A stretch of DNA of 64,000 bases from Acidimicrobiales bacterium (GCA_013003535.1 JABDIY010000052.1:1-64000), one strand, 5' to 3'. Shown: positions 22,621-36,364, counted from the first letter of the stretch. Made by a program: numbers and translations. Notes: generated by a model not told the origin, from the sequence alone.

Positions 22621-24141
22621 TCAGTCTGGCAAAGCGCCGCCCTCGGCTGTGCGGCGGGCAACAAAGTCTTGCAACTCTTCGAGAATCGAATCGTCGAGCG
22701 AAGGTTGCTCGTAGGACTCGAGTGCGGTTCTCCATGTCACCTCGGCTCGTTGATCGGTCCGCCGAGATCCCTCCTCGGTCCACTGCTCGAAGTTGGTCCG
22801 TTCAAATACCAGCGGCCGATAGAACGCGGTCTCGTACCGATCCAACGTGTGCTGGGTACCGAAGAAGTGACCGCCAGGACCGACGTCGGTGATCGCGTCG
22901 AGTGCCAGCGTTGCCTCGCTTACCTCGATCGGTTGGAACCATTCTGCGATGATCTGACACATTTCAACGTCGACGATGAACTTCTCGAAGCTGGCCGAAA
23001 GCCCGCCTTCCTGCCAGCCAGCCGCATGCTGGATCCAGTTGGCGCCGCCCAGCAGCGCTCCGTAGGTGTTTGCCATGGTTTCGTACCCCGCCTGGGCGTC
23101 GACCGAATTGGAGGTGCTCGATCCCGACGACCTCCACGGAAGCCCCACGTGACGGGCCAGCTGACCGCTGGCGATGGCTCCCTTCATCGCTTCCGGTGTT
23201 CCGAAAGCTGGCGAACCGGATTTCATATCCACATTTGACGTAAATGCCCCATACAACACTGGCGCGCCGGGCCTGGTGAGTTGGGCCAGGGTGACGGCGG
23301 CCAAGACCTCCATGTGCTGGAGAACCAGGGCACCAGCCAGCGTTACCGGCGCCATGGCACCGGCCAACGTAAATGGCGTCATGATGCACGGCTGGTTCAT
23401 TCTGGCAAAATCGATAATGCCCATGGACATCGGAACATCGAGTTGACGGGGTGAGTTTGTGTTGATGTTGGTCCAGCAGCGCGCCGAACGCGTGAATTCA
23501 TCGTCCCCCGCGATCCCGTGCCGGATCTTCACCAAATCGAATCCGTCGCGAACCCGCTGACGCCCACGAGCGTAAAGAAACGGCACCTTGTCCGTAAGTG
23601 TGAGGGTGGACAGCATCGATTCCAGGTGTCGAACCGACAAATCTATGTCGTCGGGCTCCACACACGGGGAGGTAACCGCAAGGACGTCGTAGGTCTGAGT
23701 GAGGCGAAGGAAGTTCCGTTGGTCGGCGAGGGTCCCCGACCGACGGCCGCCGGATAGGTCCGAGGCAAAAGGAGGTCCGCCCACCGGAACGAGCGAAACA
23801 CTCCGGCCGCCGACGTCTACATTGCGCTCCGGGTTCGGTGCGGCGATCTCGAAAACGGATGGAGCGGAGTCGAGTGCGAAACGAATGCTGTCCGGATCGA
23901 GGCGGACCATCAGATCATCGGTGACGGCGGCCCCGCCGGCAGCGAAGACTCGTCGTGCCTCGTCAAACAGCACCCGGATGCCTTGGTCCGACAAATACTG
24001 AATGGCAGTCTGGTGGATGTGGGCAACATGGTCCTCGGACAGCACGCGAAGGGACTCGAAGGGGTTCTTTAGTCGACGCCGATGCTGCACGTCGATCGGC
24101 TGGCGTTGCCGGCTAGTGCGAGCGCGCCGTTGTCGTGTCAT
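22621..24141 (-). CDS. Trimethylamine methyltransferase (MttB) family protein, no pyrrolysine
   Basis: 506 residues of the MttB superfamily, with landmarks PFTLAGAMAPVTLAGALVLQ, GAPVLYGAFTSNVDMK and SSSTSNSVDAQAGYE. The frame has no in-frame amber codon, so it is the pyrrolysine-free branch, as in glycine-betaine methyltransferase MtgB, which moves a methyl group from a quaternary amine to a corrinoid protein. No corrinoid-binding protein or reactivase is in the window. The N-terminus is strongly basic. The ATG follows the DUF808 stop with no gap. It supports methylated-amine use in this island. Confidence 0.88.
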   Translation of the reverse strand: MTRQRRARTSRQRQPIDVQHRRRLKNPFESLRVLSEDHVAHIHQTAIQYLSDQGIRVLFDEARRVFAAGGAAVTDDLMVRLDPDSIRFALDSAPSVFEIAAPNPERNVDVGGRSVSLVPVGGPPFASDLSGGRRSGTLADQRNFLRLTQTYDVLAVTSPCVEPDDIDLSVRHLESMLSTLTLTDKVPFLYARGRQRVRDGFDLVKIRHGIAGDDEFTRSARCWTNINTNSPRQLDVPMSMGIIDFARMNQPCIMTPFTLAGAMAPVTLAGALVLQHMEVLAAVTLAQLTRPGAPVLYGAFTSNVDMKSGSPAFGTPEAMKGAIASGQLARHVGLPWRSSGSSTSNSVDAQAGYETMANTYGALLGGANWIQHAAGWQEGGLSASFEKFIVDVEMCQIIAEWFQPIEVSEATLALDAITDVGPGGHFFGTQHTLDRYETAFYRPLVFERTNFEQWTEEGSRRTDQRAEVTWRTALESYEQPSLDDSILEELQDFVARRTAEGGALPD

Positions 24142-25083
24142 TTAGGCGTGCAGCTCTTCTTTCGACCCAATAGGTAGCTGGCCTACGACCCCCACGACTA
24201 CAGCGCCCACTGCCACGCCGATGAGGGCGGATATTCCGGTGTTGATCAGCCAGCCGAGCAGTCCTCCGATGCCCGCAACATCGTGCACCGACTCTTCCAT
24301 GCGATGGACGAGGTCGTAGGGACCGTGCCATCCAAGCTCATCCGAGCCCACCAACATAATGTGGCCACCCACCCAAAGCATCGCTGCCGTCCCGATAACC
24401 GTTAGCGCCTGCAAGACCTTGGGCATCGCCGAAACAAGGCTCCGACCAAAGCCTGCTGACGACCCGCCTCGCTCCACCATCATCAGGCCGATGTCGTCCA
24501 TTTTCACGATCAGCGCCACAACGCCGTACACGATGGCGGTGATAAGGAATGCAACCACCAACATGATGACCGCTCGGGAAACGAATCCTTCATCGATGAC
24601 CTCCTTCAGAGCGATCACCATGATTTCCCCAGACAGGATGAAATCGGTACGGATGGCACCGGCGATTGTTTTCTCCTCGGCCTCCGGACCGATCGCCGCC
24701 GCCGGTAAATCGTGATCACCGCCATGACCGGTGAGCTTGTGGTGGATCTTCTCGACGCCCTCGAAGCAGAGGTAGGCCCCTCCCGCCATCAAGATAATCT
24801 CCACGAGAATCGGTACGAACTCGCTCAAAATCAGTGCCGCCGGCAAGATGAACAGCAATTTGTTTCGCAAGGATCCGACGGCGATTCGCTTGATGATCGG
24901 CAACTCTCGTTCCGCCGCCAACCCATGCACGTAGGTGGGAGTTACCGCGGTGTCGTCCACCACCACGCCTGCGGCTTTGGCGCTCGCTCGGCCAGCGGCC
25001 GCGCCAACGTCATCCACAGACGCTGCCGCCAACTTGGCTAGGGCAGCGATGTCATCCAACAAGCCAACTAATCCGCCAGCCAT
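24142..25083 (-). CDS. yedI: DUF808 family membrane protein
   Basis: 313 residues, recognisable as the YedI/DUF808 family from MAGGLVGLLDDIAALAKLAA and the downstream DDTAVTPTYVHG, IIKRIAVGSLRNK and LCFEGVEKI blocks. About six to seven membrane segments. Function is unknown in the family. It is first in the leftward group and its stop codon touches the MttB start (TAA then ATG, no gap), so the two are co-translated; this pairing is unusual. Confidence 0.9.
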   Translation of the reverse strand: MAGGLVGLLDDIAALAKLAAASVDDVGAAAGRASAKAAGVVVDDTAVTPTYVHGLAAERELPIIKRIAVGSLRNKLLFILPAALILSEFVPILVEIILMAGGAYLCFEGVEKIHHKLTGHGGDHDLPAAAIGPEAEEKTIAGAIRTDFILSGEIMVIALKEVIDEGFVSRAVIMLVVAFLITAIVYGVVALIVKMDDIGLMMVERGGSSAGFGRSLVSAMPKVLQALTVIGTAAMLWVGGHIMLVGSDELGWHGPYDLVHRMEESVHDVAGIGGLLGWLINTGISALIGVAVGAVVVGVVGQLPIGSKEELHA

Positions 25084-28127: not shown

Positions 28128-29444
28128 ATGATCAACCACCTGAATAGCATCCGTCGAGCCCGAAATTCCAGCGGCCGAACATCTGCGCGAAGAAGGCTGT
28201 TGTTCGTTTCTAGCGCGCTGGTGCTCCTGGTTGCAGCCTGTGGGAGTGGCGATGACAACTCTGCCGTCACGGTCGCCGGCCAAACCACCAGCGATGGATC
28301 GACCACAGAGTCGTCGCCTACAACGGAACCAACAACCGCACCAACGACCGCCCCACCGACGGCGGGGCCGATGGAGTACACCGTGCTGGTCGACGGACGC
28401 GTAGACGAGTTCAATGGTGCTTTCTTCGCCTACTTCCCCGACACAATCACCGTGCACCCTGGCGACACGATCATCTACAAGAGCGTCTTCTCCGGTGAAC
28501 CGCACTCTGTCACCTTCGGTAGCGTTGTGGAGACAGCGATCGCCGAGTTCGAGAAGCTGACCCCGGAGCAGTTGCAGAGCGAGGGACCACCACCTCCCGA
28601 ACTCGAAGCTGCCTTCGCAGCCATCCCGGCGATGCTGCCAGAGGGCCCGGGCGACGCCAACCAGAACAGCGTCAATCCGTGCTTCGTCGGAGAAGGGGAG
28701 CCCGTGCCGACTGATGTGACTTCGCAGTGCCCGGTGACCGAACCAAGCCCATTCACTGGGACGGAAACGTTCTACAACTCTGGTTTCCTTCCGGACGGTG
28801 AAATCTTCAGGCTGGAGATCGCCGAGGACATCGCACCCGGGACCTACCGGGCACTATGCACGCTGCACTTCACCGAAATGATTTCCGAGGTGACGGTTGT
28901 GCCTGCGGATGAGCCGGTTCTAACGCCCGACGAGGTGGCGGCACTGGCACAGGAACAGCTCGACGAATTCGCCGACCAAATGTTGCCAGCGGTCGAAGGT
29001 GCCAAGGCCGCTGCGACGCCCGGCAACGTGCTCGCCGGGCTCGGTTCCGAGGACGTACCGCAGGTGCTGGGCGTCGACTTCATTCCCGCCGATTCGACTG
29101 CCACAGCAGGCGAGACCGTCACATGGTCCATCATCGGGCCGCATACGGTCAGCTTCAATCCGCCGGAGAGTGCCAGGACAGTCCTCGTCAAGGGCGAAGA
29201 CGACGGCTACCACCTCGTGGAGGAGGCGCTCGCGCCCGCTGGATTCGAGCCACCGCCGCCGTCGGAGGGTGAGGGTGAAGGTCCACCGCCACCGGTGGAC
29301 GGCGGCACCTGGGACGGAACCGGCTTCTTCAGCTCCGGGCTGATGTTCGGTGGCGACTTCACCTTGGCGATCACTACGCCGGGGACCTATGACTACATCT
29401 GCCTGATCCACCCAGAGATGCAAGGCACGGTCACAATCGAATGA
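28128..29444 (+). CDS. Lipoprotein with two cupredoxin domains
   Basis: 438 residues from ATG 28128 (GAAGGAGAAGG upstream). Lipobox LLVAAC puts the lipidated Cys at residue 38, followed by a Thr/Pro linker. Two plastocyanin-like domains follow, each with a full type-1 copper set: EPHSVTF then CTLHFTEM in the first, GPHTVSF then CLIHPEMQG in the second, so it could carry two electrons. The second domain is interrupted by a Pro/Glu-rich loop. Its stop overlaps the start of the multicopper oxidase (ATGA). It is probably the membrane-held electron carrier of that oxidase. Partner role is inferred from the coupling. Confidence 0.85.
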   Translation: MINHLNSIRRARNSSGRTSARRRLLFVSSALVLLVAACGSGDDNSAVTVAGQTTSDGSTTESSPTTEPTTAPTTAPPTAGPMEYTVLVDGRVDEFNGAFFAYFPDTITVHPGDTIIYKSVFSGEPHSVTFGSVVETAIAEFEKLTPEQLQSEGPPPPELEAAFAAIPAMLPEGPGDANQNSVNPCFVGEGEPVPTDVTSQCPVTEPSPFTGTETFYNSGFLPDGEIFRLEIAEDIAPGTYRALCTLHFTEMISEVTVVPADEPVLTPDEVAALAQEQLDEFADQMLPAVEGAKAAATPGNVLAGLGSEDVPQVLGVDFIPADSTATAGETVTWSIIGPHTVSFNPPESARTVLVKGEDDGYHLVEEALAPAGFEPPPPSEGEGEGPPPPVDGGTWDGTGFFSSGLMFGGDFTLAITTPGTYDYICLIHPEMQGTVTIE

Positions 29445-32400
29445 TTCGCCGCGGGGCGCCCGTTCTGTGTTGTTTGATGGTCCTGGCTCTTCTAGGGGCC
29501 ATCGACAACACGACGGAGGGTGGCGAGGTTCATGTCCCTGGCACCACGACCGACGGTAGCCAGGTCCACGACCACGGCCACGATGACCACGCCGGGGACC
29601 ACGACCACGCAGGGGATCACCCCCACCAGATCGTTTCTCAAATCGGCGGTACATCCGAGGGTGAGCCGAGCGGTCACGAGCACGACGAGGGTCTCGTCCT
29701 GCGTCCGACCACCGAGGAAACGGTTGCTGGCGACGGTACGTGCCTCGATGGCGCCCCCACCAGGGACTACGACGTGGTGGCGCTGGCCGTCGACATCACG
29801 CTCAATCGCTACGGTGATCACGACCCCGATGGGCGGATGTATGCGCTGGCGGCCGACGTGGACGCGGTACGAGCTGCCGAGAAGGGTAGGGCAGACGCCG
29901 TTTCGCCAGGACTGCAGGGGGACGCCATCCAGCCGCTGGTCTTGCGGGTATTGCCCGGCGAGTGTCTTCGTATCTCACTGACCAATCAACTCTCCAGCGA
30001 GCCCGCGAGCATCCACATCCACGCGTCCTCGCTCGTGCTCAGTCCCGACGGGACACCGGCGACGGCGGCAAATCCGGCTGCGCTGGCGGAGCCCGGATCA
30101 TCCGTCATGTACGAGTGGATGGTGCCAGAGTCCGAACCGGAAGGAACCCACGTTTTCCATTCCCACGGCGACGCCCGCACGCAGTCCGGTCATGGTCTTT
30201 TCGGGGCGGTCATCGTGGAGCCATCCGGCTCGGAGTGGCGAGACCCGCGCACAGGCGCCATGACAACGCAATGGGATGCCGTGGTCGTTCCCGAAGACGG
30301 CGTGGCATTCCGCGAATTCGTCATCTTCTATCACGAGATTGGCGATGAGAACTACCTAGTACTCGATAGCGACGACCATCCACTCCCCGTCGTGGACCCC
30401 ACCACCAGCGCCTATCGCCCCGGTGCCCGAGCGCTGAACTATCGCAGCGAGCCGTTCATGAACCGCCTCGAGCTGGCGCAGGAGGAAACGGGAATCATCG
30501 ACGAGTCACTCGCGTACAGCTCGTACTCGTTCGGCGACCCGGCGACGCCGATTCAACGGACCTACATTGGCGACCCGGTGAAGGAGCGCGTGGTCCACGC
30601 CGGCCCCGAGGTGTTCCATGTGCACCATGTGCACGGCGGGTCGGTTCGGTGGCGACGGCAGCCCGGCGCGAGTCCGTCCGATGCCGAGCATGGTCTGGAG
30701 AAACACCCTGCGCTACTCCCGGGCCCTTCCGAACGAACCGATTCCCAGACACTCGGCCCCTCGGAAACCTTTGATGTCGACCACGAATGTGCAGCAGGCG
30801 GGTGCCAGCAAGGCGCCGGCGACTATCTCGTCCACTGTCATGTGGCGCACCACTACTTCGCAGGGATGTGGGGAATCTGGCGCGTCTACAACACCCTGCA
30901 AGACGGCACGGCATCGACCGACTCGCTCGCACCGCTGCCCTCCCTTCCGGATCGCCCGGACGCCGTCGCGCCGGCCGTCACCTCGGACCTGTTAGAGGAT
31001 GCGGCACTGGCGCGGGCGCAGGATTCGCTGCCTCCGGCCGGTGTTCCGAGGGGCTATGACGCCTCAGTGTTCGATTGGACCGAAGAGAACGACCGCATTG
31101 TCAATCAACCGGAGACCCTCGCCGAGTGGCCCGGCTATGCCTCGCCGACGCCGGGTATCCGCCCGCCGATCCTATTCGATGGCTCCACGGGCCGCCCGGC
31201 CTACCCGATGCTGCGACCACACCTGGGCGCACGGCCTCCATTCGCACCCGGTCATGGGCCCGCCGCGTACATCGACCGCCCACGCGCTGACGGCCTGCCG
31301 GCGCCGCCGGGCGCAGACGGACCCGAGTCTTTATGTCCTGCCGGGACAACGGTTCGATCATTCGCGCTCCGGGCCACTGAGTTACCGGTTCCGCTCAACC
31401 AGCGGCTTGGCATCGTCGACCCGTCCGGCGTCATCTTCGTGTTGGCGGAAGATGAGACCGCTCTTCTGGCGGACCCGGAGCTTCGCGCTCCTCTGGCCAT
31501 TCGAGCCAACGCCGGTCAAGACTGCGTCGACGTCACCTTGACCAATGCGGTGCCGGACAACGGCGACCATCCATTCAGCAAGATCAGCGCGCACGTCCAC
31601 TTCATGCAGTTCGATGTGCAGTCGAGCGACGGGGTGAACACCGGGTTCAACTACGAGCAGACGTTGCGACCTTTCGCAGAAGAAGGCGAGCGACTCGTTT
31701 CGGCGGTTCAGCCGGGTGACACCAGGATCCCGCTCGTCAACGCTGACCGTTTCAGCGTCGGCGCGTTCGTCGGCATCGGCATGGAGGACAGTGCCGGTTT
31801 CGAAACTCGACGCATCGTGGAGATAGATCCCGCCGGGTGGATCACGGTGGACCGCCCGTTGGTTCGCGCCCACCAAGCCGACGCGATTGTCAGCACAGAG
31901 TTTCTCCGGCAGCGCTGGTATCCCGACGCCCAGGTAGGCACGGCGTACTTTCACGATCACGTGAACGGCATCAGGACCTGGCAGCGTGGCCTGGTCGGTG
32001 CCGTGGTTGTCGAGCCGCCCGGTGCTACGTACCACGATCCGGTAACCGGCGAGGAGGTCACTAGTGGGGCACTCGTCGACGTGCACCTCGATGACGACGT
32101 GCCAGTCTCCGCCGACATTCGCGGCAGCTTCCGCGAGTTCGTAGCATTCATCCAGGACCCCAGTCGCTTTAGCAACGTCGATCGGTCTCCAGGGGCCAAT
32201 CTGAACCTGCGCGCCGAACCGCTCGATCGACGGGACGGGCCCGTCGAACAGGTTCTGTCCTCCATCGTCCACGGCGACCCAGCCACACCGCTGGTACGCG
32301 CCTACCTGGGTGATCCACTCGTCGTTCGGGCCACTGTCGGGGGAACCAACGAGATCCACACATGGCACCTCGACGGGCATTGGTTCCGTGAAGAGCCGTG

Positions 32401-33760
32401 GAGCACAGACTCACAGCCAATCAATACGACGCATATCGGGATCAGCGAGCGCAAAGATTTGTCGGTTCCTGCCGCCGGCGGACCCCAGCAGCGTCCCGGT
32501 GACTACCTTTATCAGGACGGTCGAGCGCTGAAGCTGCGCGAAGGTGCCTGGGGCTTGCTCCGGGTCTTCGGCGCACAGGATGCCGGGGGCCCACTCCCCC
32601 TGCCCGGCCATGACCCGCCGACCGGGCCGCCGCCGCCGATCTGCCCCGACGACGCTCCGATCCGTAGCTATGAGGTTGCGGCGGTCGAGGCGAAGCTCGC
32701 CATGCTCGATTCGGGCTCCGGCCAGGTATTCGTGGAGGCCTCGGCCGTGGCGGCCTTTCAGAGCGGCACGATCGTGCCAAGACCGCTGGTGTTGAGGGCG
32801 GCTGTGGGCGACTGCATCAAAGTCAGACTTACCAACCTCCTCCCGACGGGGTCGCTACCTGTTTCACTGCATGCCGACCGCCTTGCCTACGATCCCGCCG
32901 AATCCGGAGGGGTCGAGGTGGGCATGCAACCCGCGCAGTCGGTCGCCGTCGGCGCGACCCGTGCCTACACCTTCTACGCCCACCCCGAGTACGGCGTCGG
33001 AGCAGCGATGCTGCGCGATGGCGTTGACCTCGCCCACTCTGGAGCTCGCGGGCTCTACGGGGCGATCGTCGTCGCCCCCGCCGGCTCGACCTTCGCCGAC
33101 GCAACGGCTTGGTCCACGGCCGTTCGCGACGCAAACGGGCGAGCGTGGCGAGACGCGGTGCTGTTCATGCACGACACCGACGACGCGATCGGCTCACACA
33201 GAATGCCGTACACCACCGCGGTACGGGGCGCCGTCGGTCTGAATTACGGACGGGGCGCATCGGGTCCAGTGATCGAGGCGTTCACGGGGGACCCGCTTCG
33301 GATCCATGTCCTCGCCCCATGGAGCGAGCAGGTTCAAGTGTTCTCGCTAGAAGGCCACCGCTGGCCAATCGATCCTGCGATGGACGGCTCGACAAGAGTT
33401 GCATCGATTGCCATTGGCGGGCTCGAATCGATCGTCGTGATTCCGGAAGGGGGAGCGGGCGGTGAGCTGCAGCTCGCTGGCACGTACGAGTTCGGCGACC
33501 ATCGCGAGCCCTATCGAGAGGCTGGCCTTTTCGGCAGTCTCGTTGTGTACGACCGCTCAACGTCGGTCGACAGGATCGAGCCGCTCAGCGCAGTGTCGTC
33601 CGAGGAGCCGACAGCGCGACCGACCGACGCAGCTCTGGACACGTCCAACCGAAGTCTGCTCGTTCTCGGCTTCGCGGTGATCGCCGGTCTTCTGGCCATA
33701 ACTGCAACGGTCATTCGCCGAAGTCGCTGGTCACGAAGAAACTTGTCGAAGAGAACCTAG
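29441..33760 (+). CDS. Giant six-cupredoxin multicopper oxidase, secreted and membrane-anchored
   Basis: 1439 residues. Signal-type N-terminus, a His/Asp-rich stretch (residues about 37-62, many HDH), three homologous pairs of cupredoxin domains, and a C-terminal transmembrane segment near 1404-1426 with a basic tail. Copper motifs are complete in the first pair: SIHIHASS (near 189), HSHGD (240), HVHGGSVRW (394) and HCHVAHHYFAGMWG (464), the type-1/type-3 signature. The equivalent end of pair two reads DYLYQDGRALKLREGAWG and of pair three YEFGDHREPYREAGLFG, so those copper sites are lost. Size and layout recall Mn(II) oxidases such as MnxG/MofA, but metal specificity is not shown. Confidence 0.85.
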   Translation: MIRRGAPVLCCLMVLALLGAIDNTTEGGEVHVPGTTTDGSQVHDHGHDDHAGDHDHAGDHPHQIVSQIGGTSEGEPSGHEHDEGLVLRPTTEETVAGDGTCLDGAPTRDYDVVALAVDITLNRYGDHDPDGRMYALAADVDAVRAAEKGRADAVSPGLQGDAIQPLVLRVLPGECLRISLTNQLSSEPASIHIHASSLVLSPDGTPATAANPAALAEPGSSVMYEWMVPESEPEGTHVFHSHGDARTQSGHGLFGAVIVEPSGSEWRDPRTGAMTTQWDAVVVPEDGVAFREFVIFYHEIGDENYLVLDSDDHPLPVVDPTTSAYRPGARALNYRSEPFMNRLELAQEETGIIDESLAYSSYSFGDPATPIQRTYIGDPVKERVVHAGPEVFHVHHVHGGSVRWRRQPGASPSDAEHGLEKHPALLPGPSERTDSQTLGPSETFDVDHECAAGGCQQGAGDYLVHCHVAHHYFAGMWGIWRVYNTLQDGTASTDSLAPLPSLPDRPDAVAPAVTSDLLEDAALARAQDSLPPAGVPRGYDASVFDWTEENDRIVNQPETLAEWPGYASPTPGIRPPILFDGSTGRPAYPMLRPHLGARPPFAPGHGPAAYIDRPRADGLPAPPGADGPESLCPAGTTVRSFALRATELPVPLNQRLGIVDPSGVIFVLAEDETALLADPELRAPLAIRANAGQDCVDVTLTNAVPDNGDHPFSKISAHVHFMQFDVQSSDGVNTGFNYEQTLRPFAEEGERLVSAVQPGDTRIPLVNADRFSVGAFVGIGMEDSAGFETRRIVEIDPAGWITVDRPLVRAHQADAIVSTEFLRQRWYPDAQVGTAYFHDHVNGIRTWQRGLVGAVVVEPPGATYHDPVTGEEVTSGALVDVHLDDDVPVSADIRGSFREFVAFIQDPSRFSNVDRSPGANLNLRAEPLDRRDGPVEQVLSSIVHGDPATPLVRAYLGDPLVVRATVGGTNEIHTWHLDGHWFREEPWSTDSQPINTTHIGISERKDLSVPAAGGPQQRPGDYLYQDGRALKLREGAWGLLRVFGAQDAGGPLPLPGHDPPTGPPPPICPDDAPIRSYEVAAVEAKLAMLDSGSGQVFVEASAVAAFQSGTIVPRPLVLRAAVGDCIKVRLTNLLPTGSLPVSLHADRLAYDPAESGGVEVGMQPAQSVAVGATRAYTFYAHPEYGVGAAMLRDGVDLAHSGARGLYGAIVVAPAGSTFADATAWSTAVRDANGRAWRDAVLFMHDTDDAIGSHRMPYTTAVRGAVGLNYGRGASGPVIEAFTGDPLRIHVLAPWSEQVQVFSLEGHRWPIDPAMDGSTRVASIAIGGLESIVVIPEGGAGGELQLAGTYEFGDHREPYREAGLFGSLVVYDRSTSVDRIEPLSAVSSEEPTARPTDAALDTSNRSLLVLGFAVIAGLLAITATVIRRSRWSRRNLSKRT

Positions 33761-33784: not shown

Positions 33785-36364
33785 ATGATTTACATGCTCA
33801 CCGATCCAGGGGCTGTGGCGAATCAGGGGCAATCCAGGCACACGATCTTGACGCCCGATCAGCGGGTTCGGATATTCGTTTCATCCACCTTGGAGGAGCT
33901 CGCAGCCGAACGCGCCGCCGTCTGCGATGCGATTCGACGCCTCCGGCTCTCGCCGGTGCTGTTCGAATTGGGAGCGCGGTCCCATCCTCCGCGGAGCCTC
34001 TATCGTTCGTATCTTGAACAAAGCCATGTCTTCGTCGGGCTCTACTGGGAACGGTACGGATGGGTGGCACCAGGCATGGACGTGTCGGGTCTCGAAGACG
34101 AGTACCGCCTGGGCAGCACCAAGCCGATGTTGGTCTATGTAAAACGCCCTGCGCCCCGACGCGAAGAACGGCTGATCGGCCTGCTCGAGCGGATCCGGTC
34201 GGATGATGCAGTGTCGTACCGCGCGTTCACCAACGCCGAGGAGCTCGAAGCTTTGGTTTCCGATGATCTTTCGATGCTGTTGAGCGAAGCATTTCTGGAT
34301 CGGCCAGATCTCGGCGACACCACACCTCGGCGATTCACCTTGCCTAGCGACGCCACGCCGTTTATCGGCAGGGCTCACGAACTCGACGCTCTGACGGCCT
34401 TGGTGAATGATCCCAGTGTCCGGTTGGTCACCCTGACCGGGCCGGGGGGCATCGGCAAGACGCGACTCGCGTTGCGAGCTGCGACCCAGGCCGCGCCGGC
34501 CTTCGAGGAGGGTGCCGTGTTCGTTTCGCTGGCTTCGGTGACCGACAGCCGTCAGGTCGTCCAGCACATCGCATCGGCGATCGGCCTGCGAGACACCAGT
34601 GGCATCACGCTCGACGTACTCAAGAATGACCTCTCGAGAAGGTCGCTCCTGCTCGTCGTGGACAACTTCGAGCACGTCATGGCCGCAGCCGGGATCCTTA
34701 CCGAGCTGGTCGACGGCGCAACGAACCTCATGGTGTTGGTCACCAGCCGCGAAGCGCTCAGGGTGCGAGCCGAGCACGAGTTCCCCGTGCCTCCCCTCGA
34801 CGCGGAGGACAGCGCCCTCATGTTCGAGGACCGCGCCCTCGCCGTGCGACCCGATTTCATGATGGCGGGTCCAAATCGGGAGATCGTCGACCGCATCAGT
34901 CAGCGACTTGAAGGAGTGCCTCTGGCCATCGAGTTGGCGGCGGCGCGAGTGAGAGTACTCACTCCGGCGGTGATCCTCGATCGGCTCGATCGCCGTCTCG
35001 ACTTCCTCGTCGCCGGTCCTCGTGACCTTCCCGAACGCCAGCGGGCACTTCGCGACACGATCCGCTGGAGCTTCGACCTTCTCGACGAAACCGAGCGGCG
35101 CGTGTTCTCCGGGCTCGGTGTGTTCGTGGGCAGCTTCTCGCTCAGCGCCGTCGAGGCGATCGCTCCTGCCTTGGATGTGTCCAGCACCGACATTCTCGAC
35201 ACGCTGGCGGCTCTCGTCGACAAAAGCCTGGTGCGGGCCGAGGCCTCGGCCGGTGAGCCCCGGTTCCGGATGCTTCAGATGGTCGCCGATTTCGCGGGCG
35301 ATCGCTTGGCCGAACGAGCTGAGGAAACGACGGTCGGCGAACTCCACGCTATGCACTACCACCAGCTCGGATTGGACGTCGGAAGGGGCGTAGTCCACGG
35401 AGATCAGCGTCGGTGGCTGGCGGTGGTAGGGGACGACACCGAAGGCGAGGCCGGCAACCTGCGCGCCGCGCTGGACTGGTTGATGCACCATCGCCGCCTC
35501 GACGACCTGGCGTCGCTGGCATGGGCGCTGTGGGTCCCGACCTGGGTGAACGGCCAGATAGAGGAAGGACGACGCCTGGCGAAAGCCGCCCTCGCGGCCG
35601 ACGGCGAGCTCTCCGATCGCTCGCGCGCTCGCCTTCTCGTCGTGCTTGGAGTCTACGAAATGTGGACCGGCAACCATGACGATGCGATCGTCTCGTTGCA
35701 CGAAGGAGGTGAACTGGCTCGTGGTATCGGCGATGAGGACGCCGGCGCAGCAGCCATGCTGGCTGAATCCATGGTTGAGGGGCCCGGCGCAGGAGCACGG
35801 CGGGCAGAGGAACTGGCGCTCCAGACGTTGGAGACCTACCGCCGGCTTGGCGATACCTGGGGTGAAGCGGCGACCCTGAACGTGTTGGCCTGGATATACA
35901 CAGCAAACGAACGGTTCGGCGACGAAACCATCTTCGAGCAGGCGCTCTCGGTCTCGTTGGCAGCTGGGGACGAACAATTCACCGCACTCGCCGAGGTCAA
36001 CCTGGCCGAGTACTGGCTCCACCACGGTGACCTCGATGAGACGACCCGACTCCTCACCTCGTGTATCGACCGCCATCGGTCACTCCGGCTGATGTACTCC
36101 ATCGCATATTTGCTCGAGGGAACGGCTCGCCTGGCAGCACACTGTGGCGACACCCCGCGTGCGGCGCGTCTCCTCGGAGCGGCTTGGGAAATCCGTTCGA
36201 CGACGGGCGTTGCGATATGGGGAAGTCAGCGCGAGCGGCGCGACCGCTTCGCCGCCGAGCTGTCTCGGTCTCTGGGTACGGAGGTCTTTGCTGCGGCCGT
36301 GGACTCGGGACGAGCCCTTGATTACGCCAGCGCGGTCGATGAGGCATCCATCGACCTGCCCTAG
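33785..36364 (+). CDS. DUF4062-STAND ATPase with TPR-like C-terminus
   Basis: 859 residues, 24 nt after the oxidase. DUF4062 domain at about residues 27-110 (RVRIFVSSTLEELAAERAAV), then a NACHT/NB-ARC-type ATPase: FIGRAHELDAL near 193, Walker A GPGGIGKTR near 218, Walker B LLLVVDNFEH near 288 and TSREALRVRAEHEF near 320. The last 300 residues are helical repeats ending like COG3903 predicted ATPases (RAARLLGAAWEIR). STAND proteins are switches that assemble on ligand binding. DUF4062 is found at the N-terminus of signalling and conflict proteins. No HTH is present, so it is not itself a transcription factor. Either a sensor for the copper module or an immune-like gene. Confidence 0.86.
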   Translation: MIYMLTDPGAVANQGQSRHTILTPDQRVRIFVSSTLEELAAERAAVCDAIRRLRLSPVLFELGARSHPPRSLYRSYLEQSHVFVGLYWERYGWVAPGMDVSGLEDEYRLGSTKPMLVYVKRPAPRREERLIGLLERIRSDDAVSYRAFTNAEELEALVSDDLSMLLSEAFLDRPDLGDTTPRRFTLPSDATPFIGRAHELDALTALVNDPSVRLVTLTGPGGIGKTRLALRAATQAAPAFEEGAVFVSLASVTDSRQVVQHIASAIGLRDTSGITLDVLKNDLSRRSLLLVVDNFEHVMAAAGILTELVDGATNLMVLVTSREALRVRAEHEFPVPPLDAEDSALMFEDRALAVRPDFMMAGPNREIVDRISQRLEGVPLAIELAAARVRVLTPAVILDRLDRRLDFLVAGPRDLPERQRALRDTIRWSFDLLDETERRVFSGLGVFVGSFSLSAVEAIAPALDVSSTDILDTLAALVDKSLVRAEASAGEPRFRMLQMVADFAGDRLAERAEETTVGELHAMHYHQLGLDVGRGVVHGDQRRWLAVVGDDTEGEAGNLRAALDWLMHHRRLDDLASLAWALWVPTWVNGQIEEGRRLAKAALAADGELSDRSRARLLVVLGVYEMWTGNHDDAIVSLHEGGELARGIGDEDAGAAAMLAESMVEGPGAGARRAEELALQTLETYRRLGDTWGEAATLNVLAWIYTANERFGDETIFEQALSVSLAAGDEQFTALAEVNLAEYWLHHGDLDETTRLLTSCIDRHRSLRLMYSIAYLLEGTARLAAHCGDTPRAARLLGAAWEIRSTTGVAIWGSQRERRDRFAAELSRSLGTEVFAAAVDSGRALDYASAVDEASIDLP

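Follow-up and report, generated by a model that had tools for sequence, protein, structure and literature searches.

A six-cupredoxin multicopper oxidase of the MnxG superfamily is encoded in the genome of an Acidimicrobiales bacterium immediately after, and overlapping with, a gene for a lipoprotein built of two cupredoxins. That the oxidase is a variant of this superfamily is well supported, and its conserved lipoprotein partner is unusual. With a probability of about 0.55, the oxidase is a cell-surface metallo-oxidase that reduces O2 and has a dedicated, membrane-tethered dicupredoxin partner, Mn(II) being the likeliest substrate and Fe(II) the second. Detailed knowledge of Mn oxidation by copper enzymes comes mainly from Bacillus and Pseudomonas. 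The present oxidase belongs to a distinct and rare branch whose partner protein is a different one and whose members come from Acidimicrobiia, other Actinomycetota and Chloroflexota.

Organization of the gene pair and its surroundings

The whole stretch of DNA that was analysed, 64,000 nucleotides in length, is referred to as the window, and the features of the gene pair within it are collected in Table 1. As stated in the preliminary description, the open reading frames of the lipoprotein (438 aa) and the oxidase (1439 aa) overlap, the stop codon of the former and the start codon of the latter sharing the tetranucleotide ATGA. A promoter scan of the locus returned nothing, and no Mn-specific marker is located near the oxidase. 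The neighbourhood contains catabolic genes for a P450, a Rieske oxygenase and an FMN dehydrogenase. On the same strand, a DUF4062/NB-ARC gene (33785-36364) begins 24 bp past the oxidase, and its product looks like a STAND-type regulator. The regulator, the P450 and the catabolic neighbours were considered as members of the system and set aside, none of them being conserved in relatives. Antisense to the DUF4062 gene lies an ORF of 731 aa (33881-36076, minus strand), probably a shadow ORF of high-GC DNA. A gene for an MttB-family methyltransferase (22621-25083, minus strand), adjoining a DUF808 membrane protein, is read through without an in-frame stop and is therefore not of the pyrrolysine type.

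Table 1. Positions of the two genes and of their domains and motifs, counted from the first nucleotide of the window
Feature	Position	Strand	Evidence or remarks
Two-cupredoxin lipoprotein gene (438 aa), upstream partner	28128..29444	+	ORF; homologue adjacent to oxidase in 9/9 clade members
Lipobox VAAC, lipidated Cys38	28230..28241	+	
Cupredoxin 1, type-1 set H126, C244, H247, M251	28371..28898	+	Motif and model
Long helix joining the cupredoxins, residues 267-295	28926..29012	+	AlphaFold2 model, mean pLDDT 78
Cupredoxin 2, type-1 set H339, C425, H428, M431 (CLIHPEM 29400-29420)	29025..29441	+	
Six-cupredoxin multicopper oxidase gene, MnxG superfamily (1439 aa)	29441..33760	+	ORF, homology and fold match
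His/Asp-rich N-terminal stretch after signal segment	29525..29695	+	Composition; not strongly conserved in relatives
Domain 1	29756..30292	+	Four His: HIH 30014-30022, HSH 30158-30166; 9/9 in clade, incomplete in outgroups
Domain 2	30293..30910	+	Predicted type-1 site and half of trinuclear site; motifs 30617-30634, 30833-30868
Domain 3	31334..32095	+	Predicted other trinuclear half: H718/H720 (31592-31600), H838/H840 (31952-31960)
Domain 4	32096..32590	+	No type-1 Cys; clade-conserved HTWHxDGH (H973, H976, D978; 32357-32374)
Domain 5	32633..33115	+	No HxH pair; clade-conserved D1146, D1193
Domain 6	33116..33595	+	No type-1 Cys or trinuclear His set; E1304 (33350-33352) clade-conserved
C-terminal TM anchor	33653..33715	+	Hydropathy

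Domain architecture of the oxidase

Six cupredoxin domains, grouped as three homologous pairs, make up the oxidase, each pair aligning to a pair of the MnxG of the Bacillus Mnx complex (PDB 9bxa). Domain 6 is assigned from sequence, the AlphaFold2 model spanning domains 1-5 with moderate quality (pLDDT 64, pTM 0.60). Three motifs, reported earlier at the ends of the pairs, are present and align both mutually and with the ends of the three pairs in Bacillus MnxG. The N-terminus starts with a hydrophobic stretch, followed by 11 His and 13 Asp/Glu within residues 29-85, and a strong transmembrane segment is located by hydropathy at about residues 1405-1425. Export, a His/Asp-rich start and a C-terminal membrane anchor, all proposed beforehand, were thus recovered in the 1439-residue protein. 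Most relatives possess the anchor, which L007 and L008 lack. At L026, the C-terminal region of an oxidase is followed by long glycine/aspartate-rich (RTX-like) repeats, which fit the expectation for a secreted surface protein.

Two local features may be mentioned here. Between both HxH motifs of domain 3 there is an insert of approximately 75 residues (about 745-819; 31673-31897), which is conserved in the clade of lipoprotein-linked oxidases and in L032/L009 and absent from Priestia MnxG. Just ahead of the HCH motif of domain 2, the segment ECAAGGC (residues 449-455; 30785-30805) provides a Cys-x4-Cys pair that the clade and L015/L016 conserve and MnxG lacks; it possibly forms a disulfide near the type-1 site.

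Copper ligands of the oxidase

A type-1 set (H393, C466, H471, and M476) is found in domain 2 only, the Cys being absent from domains 4 and 6. The trinuclear cluster is predicted to be held by H396, H398, H465, and H467 of domain 2, within the motifs HxxHxH and HCH, together with H718, H720, H838, and H840 of domain 3, within HVH and HDH. In 19 homologues, MnxG among them, these 12 ligands never vary where the residue can be read, and all 12 are identical in Priestia MnxG; H471 aligns to an Ala of the 9bxa sequence, which is that of the H340A mutant. In bacterial six-domain oxidases, the trinuclear site lies between domains 2 and 3 and a mononuclear site is present in domain 2 only (PMC3600357), and the layout predicted from the present sequence is the same. 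Judged by its residues, the O2-reducing ligand set is complete. The earlier view that copper sites are kept only in the first pair therefore holds for the type-1 Cys/His/Met set of domain 2 and fails for the trinuclear His, since domain 3 keeps both HxH pairs. Inability to form a trinuclear cluster had been named as evidence against an oxidase; all eight His of the ligand set are in place. Two other locations were rejected: a cluster within the first pair, formed by domains 1 and 2, because clusters in such rings form between pairs (PMC3600357), and a ceruloplasmin-like cluster of domains 1 and 6, because domain 6 lacks the His and presents Q1299, S1302, E1304, G1352, and H1354 at the ligand positions.

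Relationship to MnxG and choice of substrate

In the oxidase, Pfam recovers only generic Cu-oxidase domains. In a sequence search of the PDB, 9bxa was the best match by far (E=8e-109), as it was for each of the three pairs searched separately, and a fold search with the model of domains 1-5 again placed it at the top (E=2.9e-61), with six-domain factor V and ceruloplasmin as the next matches. The resemblance to MnxG, previously noted from size, is accordingly one of true homology, and both proteins display six cupredoxins, one type-1 set in domain 2 and eight His over domains 2 and 3. Assignment as an MnxG equivalog is ruled out, since the NCBIfam model NF041487 (1894 positions, compared with 1439 residues here) matches in nine stretches with E=4e-42 and reaches 143 bits, below its cutoff of 3100. 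Identity to the Priestia form is about 34%. In contrast to MnxG, the present oxidase has a signal segment, a His-rich start, a TM anchor and the domain 3 insert, keeps four His in domain 1, and is partnered by a dicupredoxin lipoprotein. Bacillus Mnx activity requires MnxE/MnxF (PMC5622069), and on a Priestia plasmid two small genes, placed as mnxE/mnxF would be, precede the MnxG-like gene; tblastn with the Priestia queries, which are short and of limited sensitivity, gave no MnxE/MnxF match at E<=1 in the window and the fetched loci.

The six-domain ring fold of ceruloplasmin and hephaestin is among the top structural matches. In ceruloplasmin, domains 1 and 6 hold the trinuclear site and domains 2, 4, and 6 a type-1 site each, whereas the oxidase has a predicted domain 2/3 site and a single type-1 set, so that the ceruloplasmin-type pattern is absent. 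Algal six-domain ferroxidases also place the trinuclear site between domains 2 and 3 (PMC3600357). The likeness to algal Fox1 is drawn from this published layout, and the extra mononuclear sites of Fox-type proteins in domains 4 and 6 (PMC3600357) are missing here. Because the domain 2/3 site is shared with these ferroxidases, the architecture does not single out Mn, and Fe(II) instead of Mn(II) could be the physiological substrate, as in Fox1 or ceruloplasmin-type six-domain oxidases. Such a role would also suit the carboxylates conserved beside the His sets of domains 4-6. However, the closest solved relative is a Mn oxidase, and the neighbours scanned around the pair included neither an iron permease nor a siderophore gene; a ferroxidase is regarded as unlikely, though not remote.

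Oxidation of Cu(I) for copper detoxification, with the lipoprotein as copper-binding partner, would be compatible with two cupredoxins and an invariant copper loop in that partner, as well as with the CopC and YcnI genes near a distant Streptomyces relative and CopC/CopD at the Priestia MnxG locus. Yet no copper-resistance gene adjoins the pair in the window, and the CueO and CopA models show only weak similarity to the oxidase, leaving this function improbable. A laccase-like enzyme that attacks phenolics, for which the lipoprotein would act as electron shuttle, is suggested by weak matches of domains 1-2 to two-domain laccases and by the catabolic genes nearby. It too is very doubtful: no other match comes close to the six-domain MnxG fold, and those catabolic genes are not kept beside the oxidase in relatives.

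Conservation of the gene pair

The clade of lipoprotein-linked oxidases has nine members. Besides the window, these comprise a groundwater Chloroflexi MAG, two Dehalococcoidia MAGs and, from other Actinomycetota, five MAGs, one of them an Acidimicrobiia MAG (contig G042) of the same order as the window genome; L055 and L005 are one contig, counted once. In all nine, the oxidase gene is directly adjoined by a gene for a relative of the lipoprotein, located upstream on the same strand in seven (one with two tandem copies), downstream in one and convergent in one. It is split by an apparent frameshift in two of the MAGs. Since the pairing is kept at nine independent loci, chance is excluded. These oxidases form a single group in the tree (support 87/95). 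No lipoprotein gene stands beside the outgroup oxidases (0/10 loci), nor was a copy detected genome-wide at E<=1e-8 in nine genomes with outgroup or distant oxidases.

The distribution of the oxidase is rare and patchy, another strong match (E<1e-100) being present in 5 of 99 relatives' genomes; across the phylum, it occurs in 3 of 397 genomes, the window genome included. The lipoprotein family is found in 14 of the same 397, mostly without the oxidase. In a genome of the same genus (G001) that lacks the lipoprotein, two large oxidase-type genes are arranged in tandem (L046, 1638-10339).

The lipoprotein family

Both type-1 copper sites that had been attributed to the lipoprotein were borne out by motif and model (Table 1), each domain showing the ligand set in a cupredoxin fold. 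The C-terminal domain additionally matches PF00127 (plastocyanin/azurin), as well as cupredoxin tails of copper nitrite reductases (NirK-type), from all of which the lipoprotein differs in its two cupredoxins, long-helix joint and lipid anchor. The protein stays below the cutoff of every NCBIfam model. Homology to MnxE/MnxF was rejected, neither a resemblance among its matches nor a tblastn match in the window and the fetched loci having been found. All 27 sequences of the family that were checked contain the C-terminal Cys-His-Met loop; two clade members (L005 and L008) have lost the N-terminal type-1 set, and the N-terminal copper loop is incomplete in several kinase-linked relatives.

In 10 of 18 fetched loci, the lipoprotein gene directly precedes multi-TM proteins, mostly HisKA_3 sensor kinases, an arrangement observed in other Actinomycetota (L080-L091). 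None of these 10 loci has an adjacent MnxG-type oxidase. Lipoprotein and multi-TM kinase possibly constitute a copper or redox sensing system, and a literature search returned nothing on cupredoxin lipoproteins with kinases in Actinobacteria. By extension, the lipoprotein of the oxidase pair could be a module that senses redox state or copper and reports on the oxidase or the metal, rather than an electron carrier or copper donor. The kinase-linked loci invite this idea, but no sensor kinase adjoins the present pair, and in the tree the lipoproteins linked to kinases branch apart from those linked to oxidases (90/92), which means that their roles may differ; a sensor here is therefore considered unlikely, though not far-fetched. 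Because the family also adjoins sensor kinases without an oxidase, the lipoprotein appears to be a general, reusable surface copper module. The earlier proposal that electrons are fed through it found no direct support, the oxidase having its own complete set and the family occurring beside sensor kinases as well; such a role of the protein is a guess.

Proposed mechanism

Oxidation of a metal at the cell surface, as the preliminary description had suggested, is the best reading of a complete predicted O2-reducing ligand set on a surface-anchored, MnxG-type ring, and Mn(II) is favoured by the nearest homology, that to MnxG. While the domain pairs, the ligand sets, the homology and the conserved pairing of the genes are established by the present analysis, we infer the following course for the metal substrate, the electron path and the role of the lipoprotein. 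A metal ion in its reduced form, most probably Mn(II) and secondly Fe(II), would give single electrons to the type-1 copper of domain 2, from where the Cys466-His465/His467 bridge would lead them on to the trinuclear cluster shared by domains 2 and 3. There O2 would be reduced to water, while the oxidised metal would stay outside the membrane. The other four domains would serve as scaffold and probable substrate-handling surface. As constant partner, the lipoprotein would replace MnxE/MnxF; its invariant C-terminal cupredoxin would most likely serve for binding or supplying copper, or else for electron exchange close to the type-1 site. The host is aerobic, with several COX1-type oxidase genes. 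RuBisCO is absent from it, so metal-driven autotrophy is unsupported by that route. The low identity to Priestia MnxG, the equivalog score far under its cutoff, the failure to find MnxE/MnxF, the lack of a Mn-specific marker nearby, the rarity of the oxidase and the moderate model all speak against this interpretation.

Candidate second metal site

Residues specific to the clade may bear on substrate handling. H192, H194, H240, and H242 of domain 1 are present in all nine members, and the complete set is found in no outgroup. E1304, H973/H976/D978, and D1146 are also invariant in the clade, most of them differing in MnxG, and H1354 of domain 6 is kept in seven of the nine. According to the pseudo-threefold layout, these residues would be placed at the positions of lost trinuclear sites, where residual ligands have already been noted (PMC3600357). 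It should be noted that His conservation is high throughout the clade, 27 of 45 core His being invariant, for which reason a second metal site is a hypothesis only; the argument for the domain 1 His is founded on their incompleteness outside the clade and not on conservation within it. A His/carboxylate site that binds the substrate metal (Mn/Fe) instead of copper can be imagined where ceruloplasmin has its trinuclear site, formed by the four His of domain 1 opposite E1304 and often H1354 of domain 6, along with a His/Asp site (H973, H976, D978, and D1146) between domains 4 and 5. The ring would then combine one O2-reducing cluster with one or two substrate sites derived from decayed clusters, served by the copper/redox module of the lipoprotein, which other bacteria couple to sensor kinases. 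Such an arrangement is speculative and rather unlikely.

Implications

If the oxidase does oxidise Mn(II), MnxE/MnxF would not be essential to the chemistry, and metagenomic surveys would gain a new marker. Encountered beside the oxidase and beside sensor kinases alike, the lipoprotein seems to represent a surface copper module not described so far and merits characterisation of its own.
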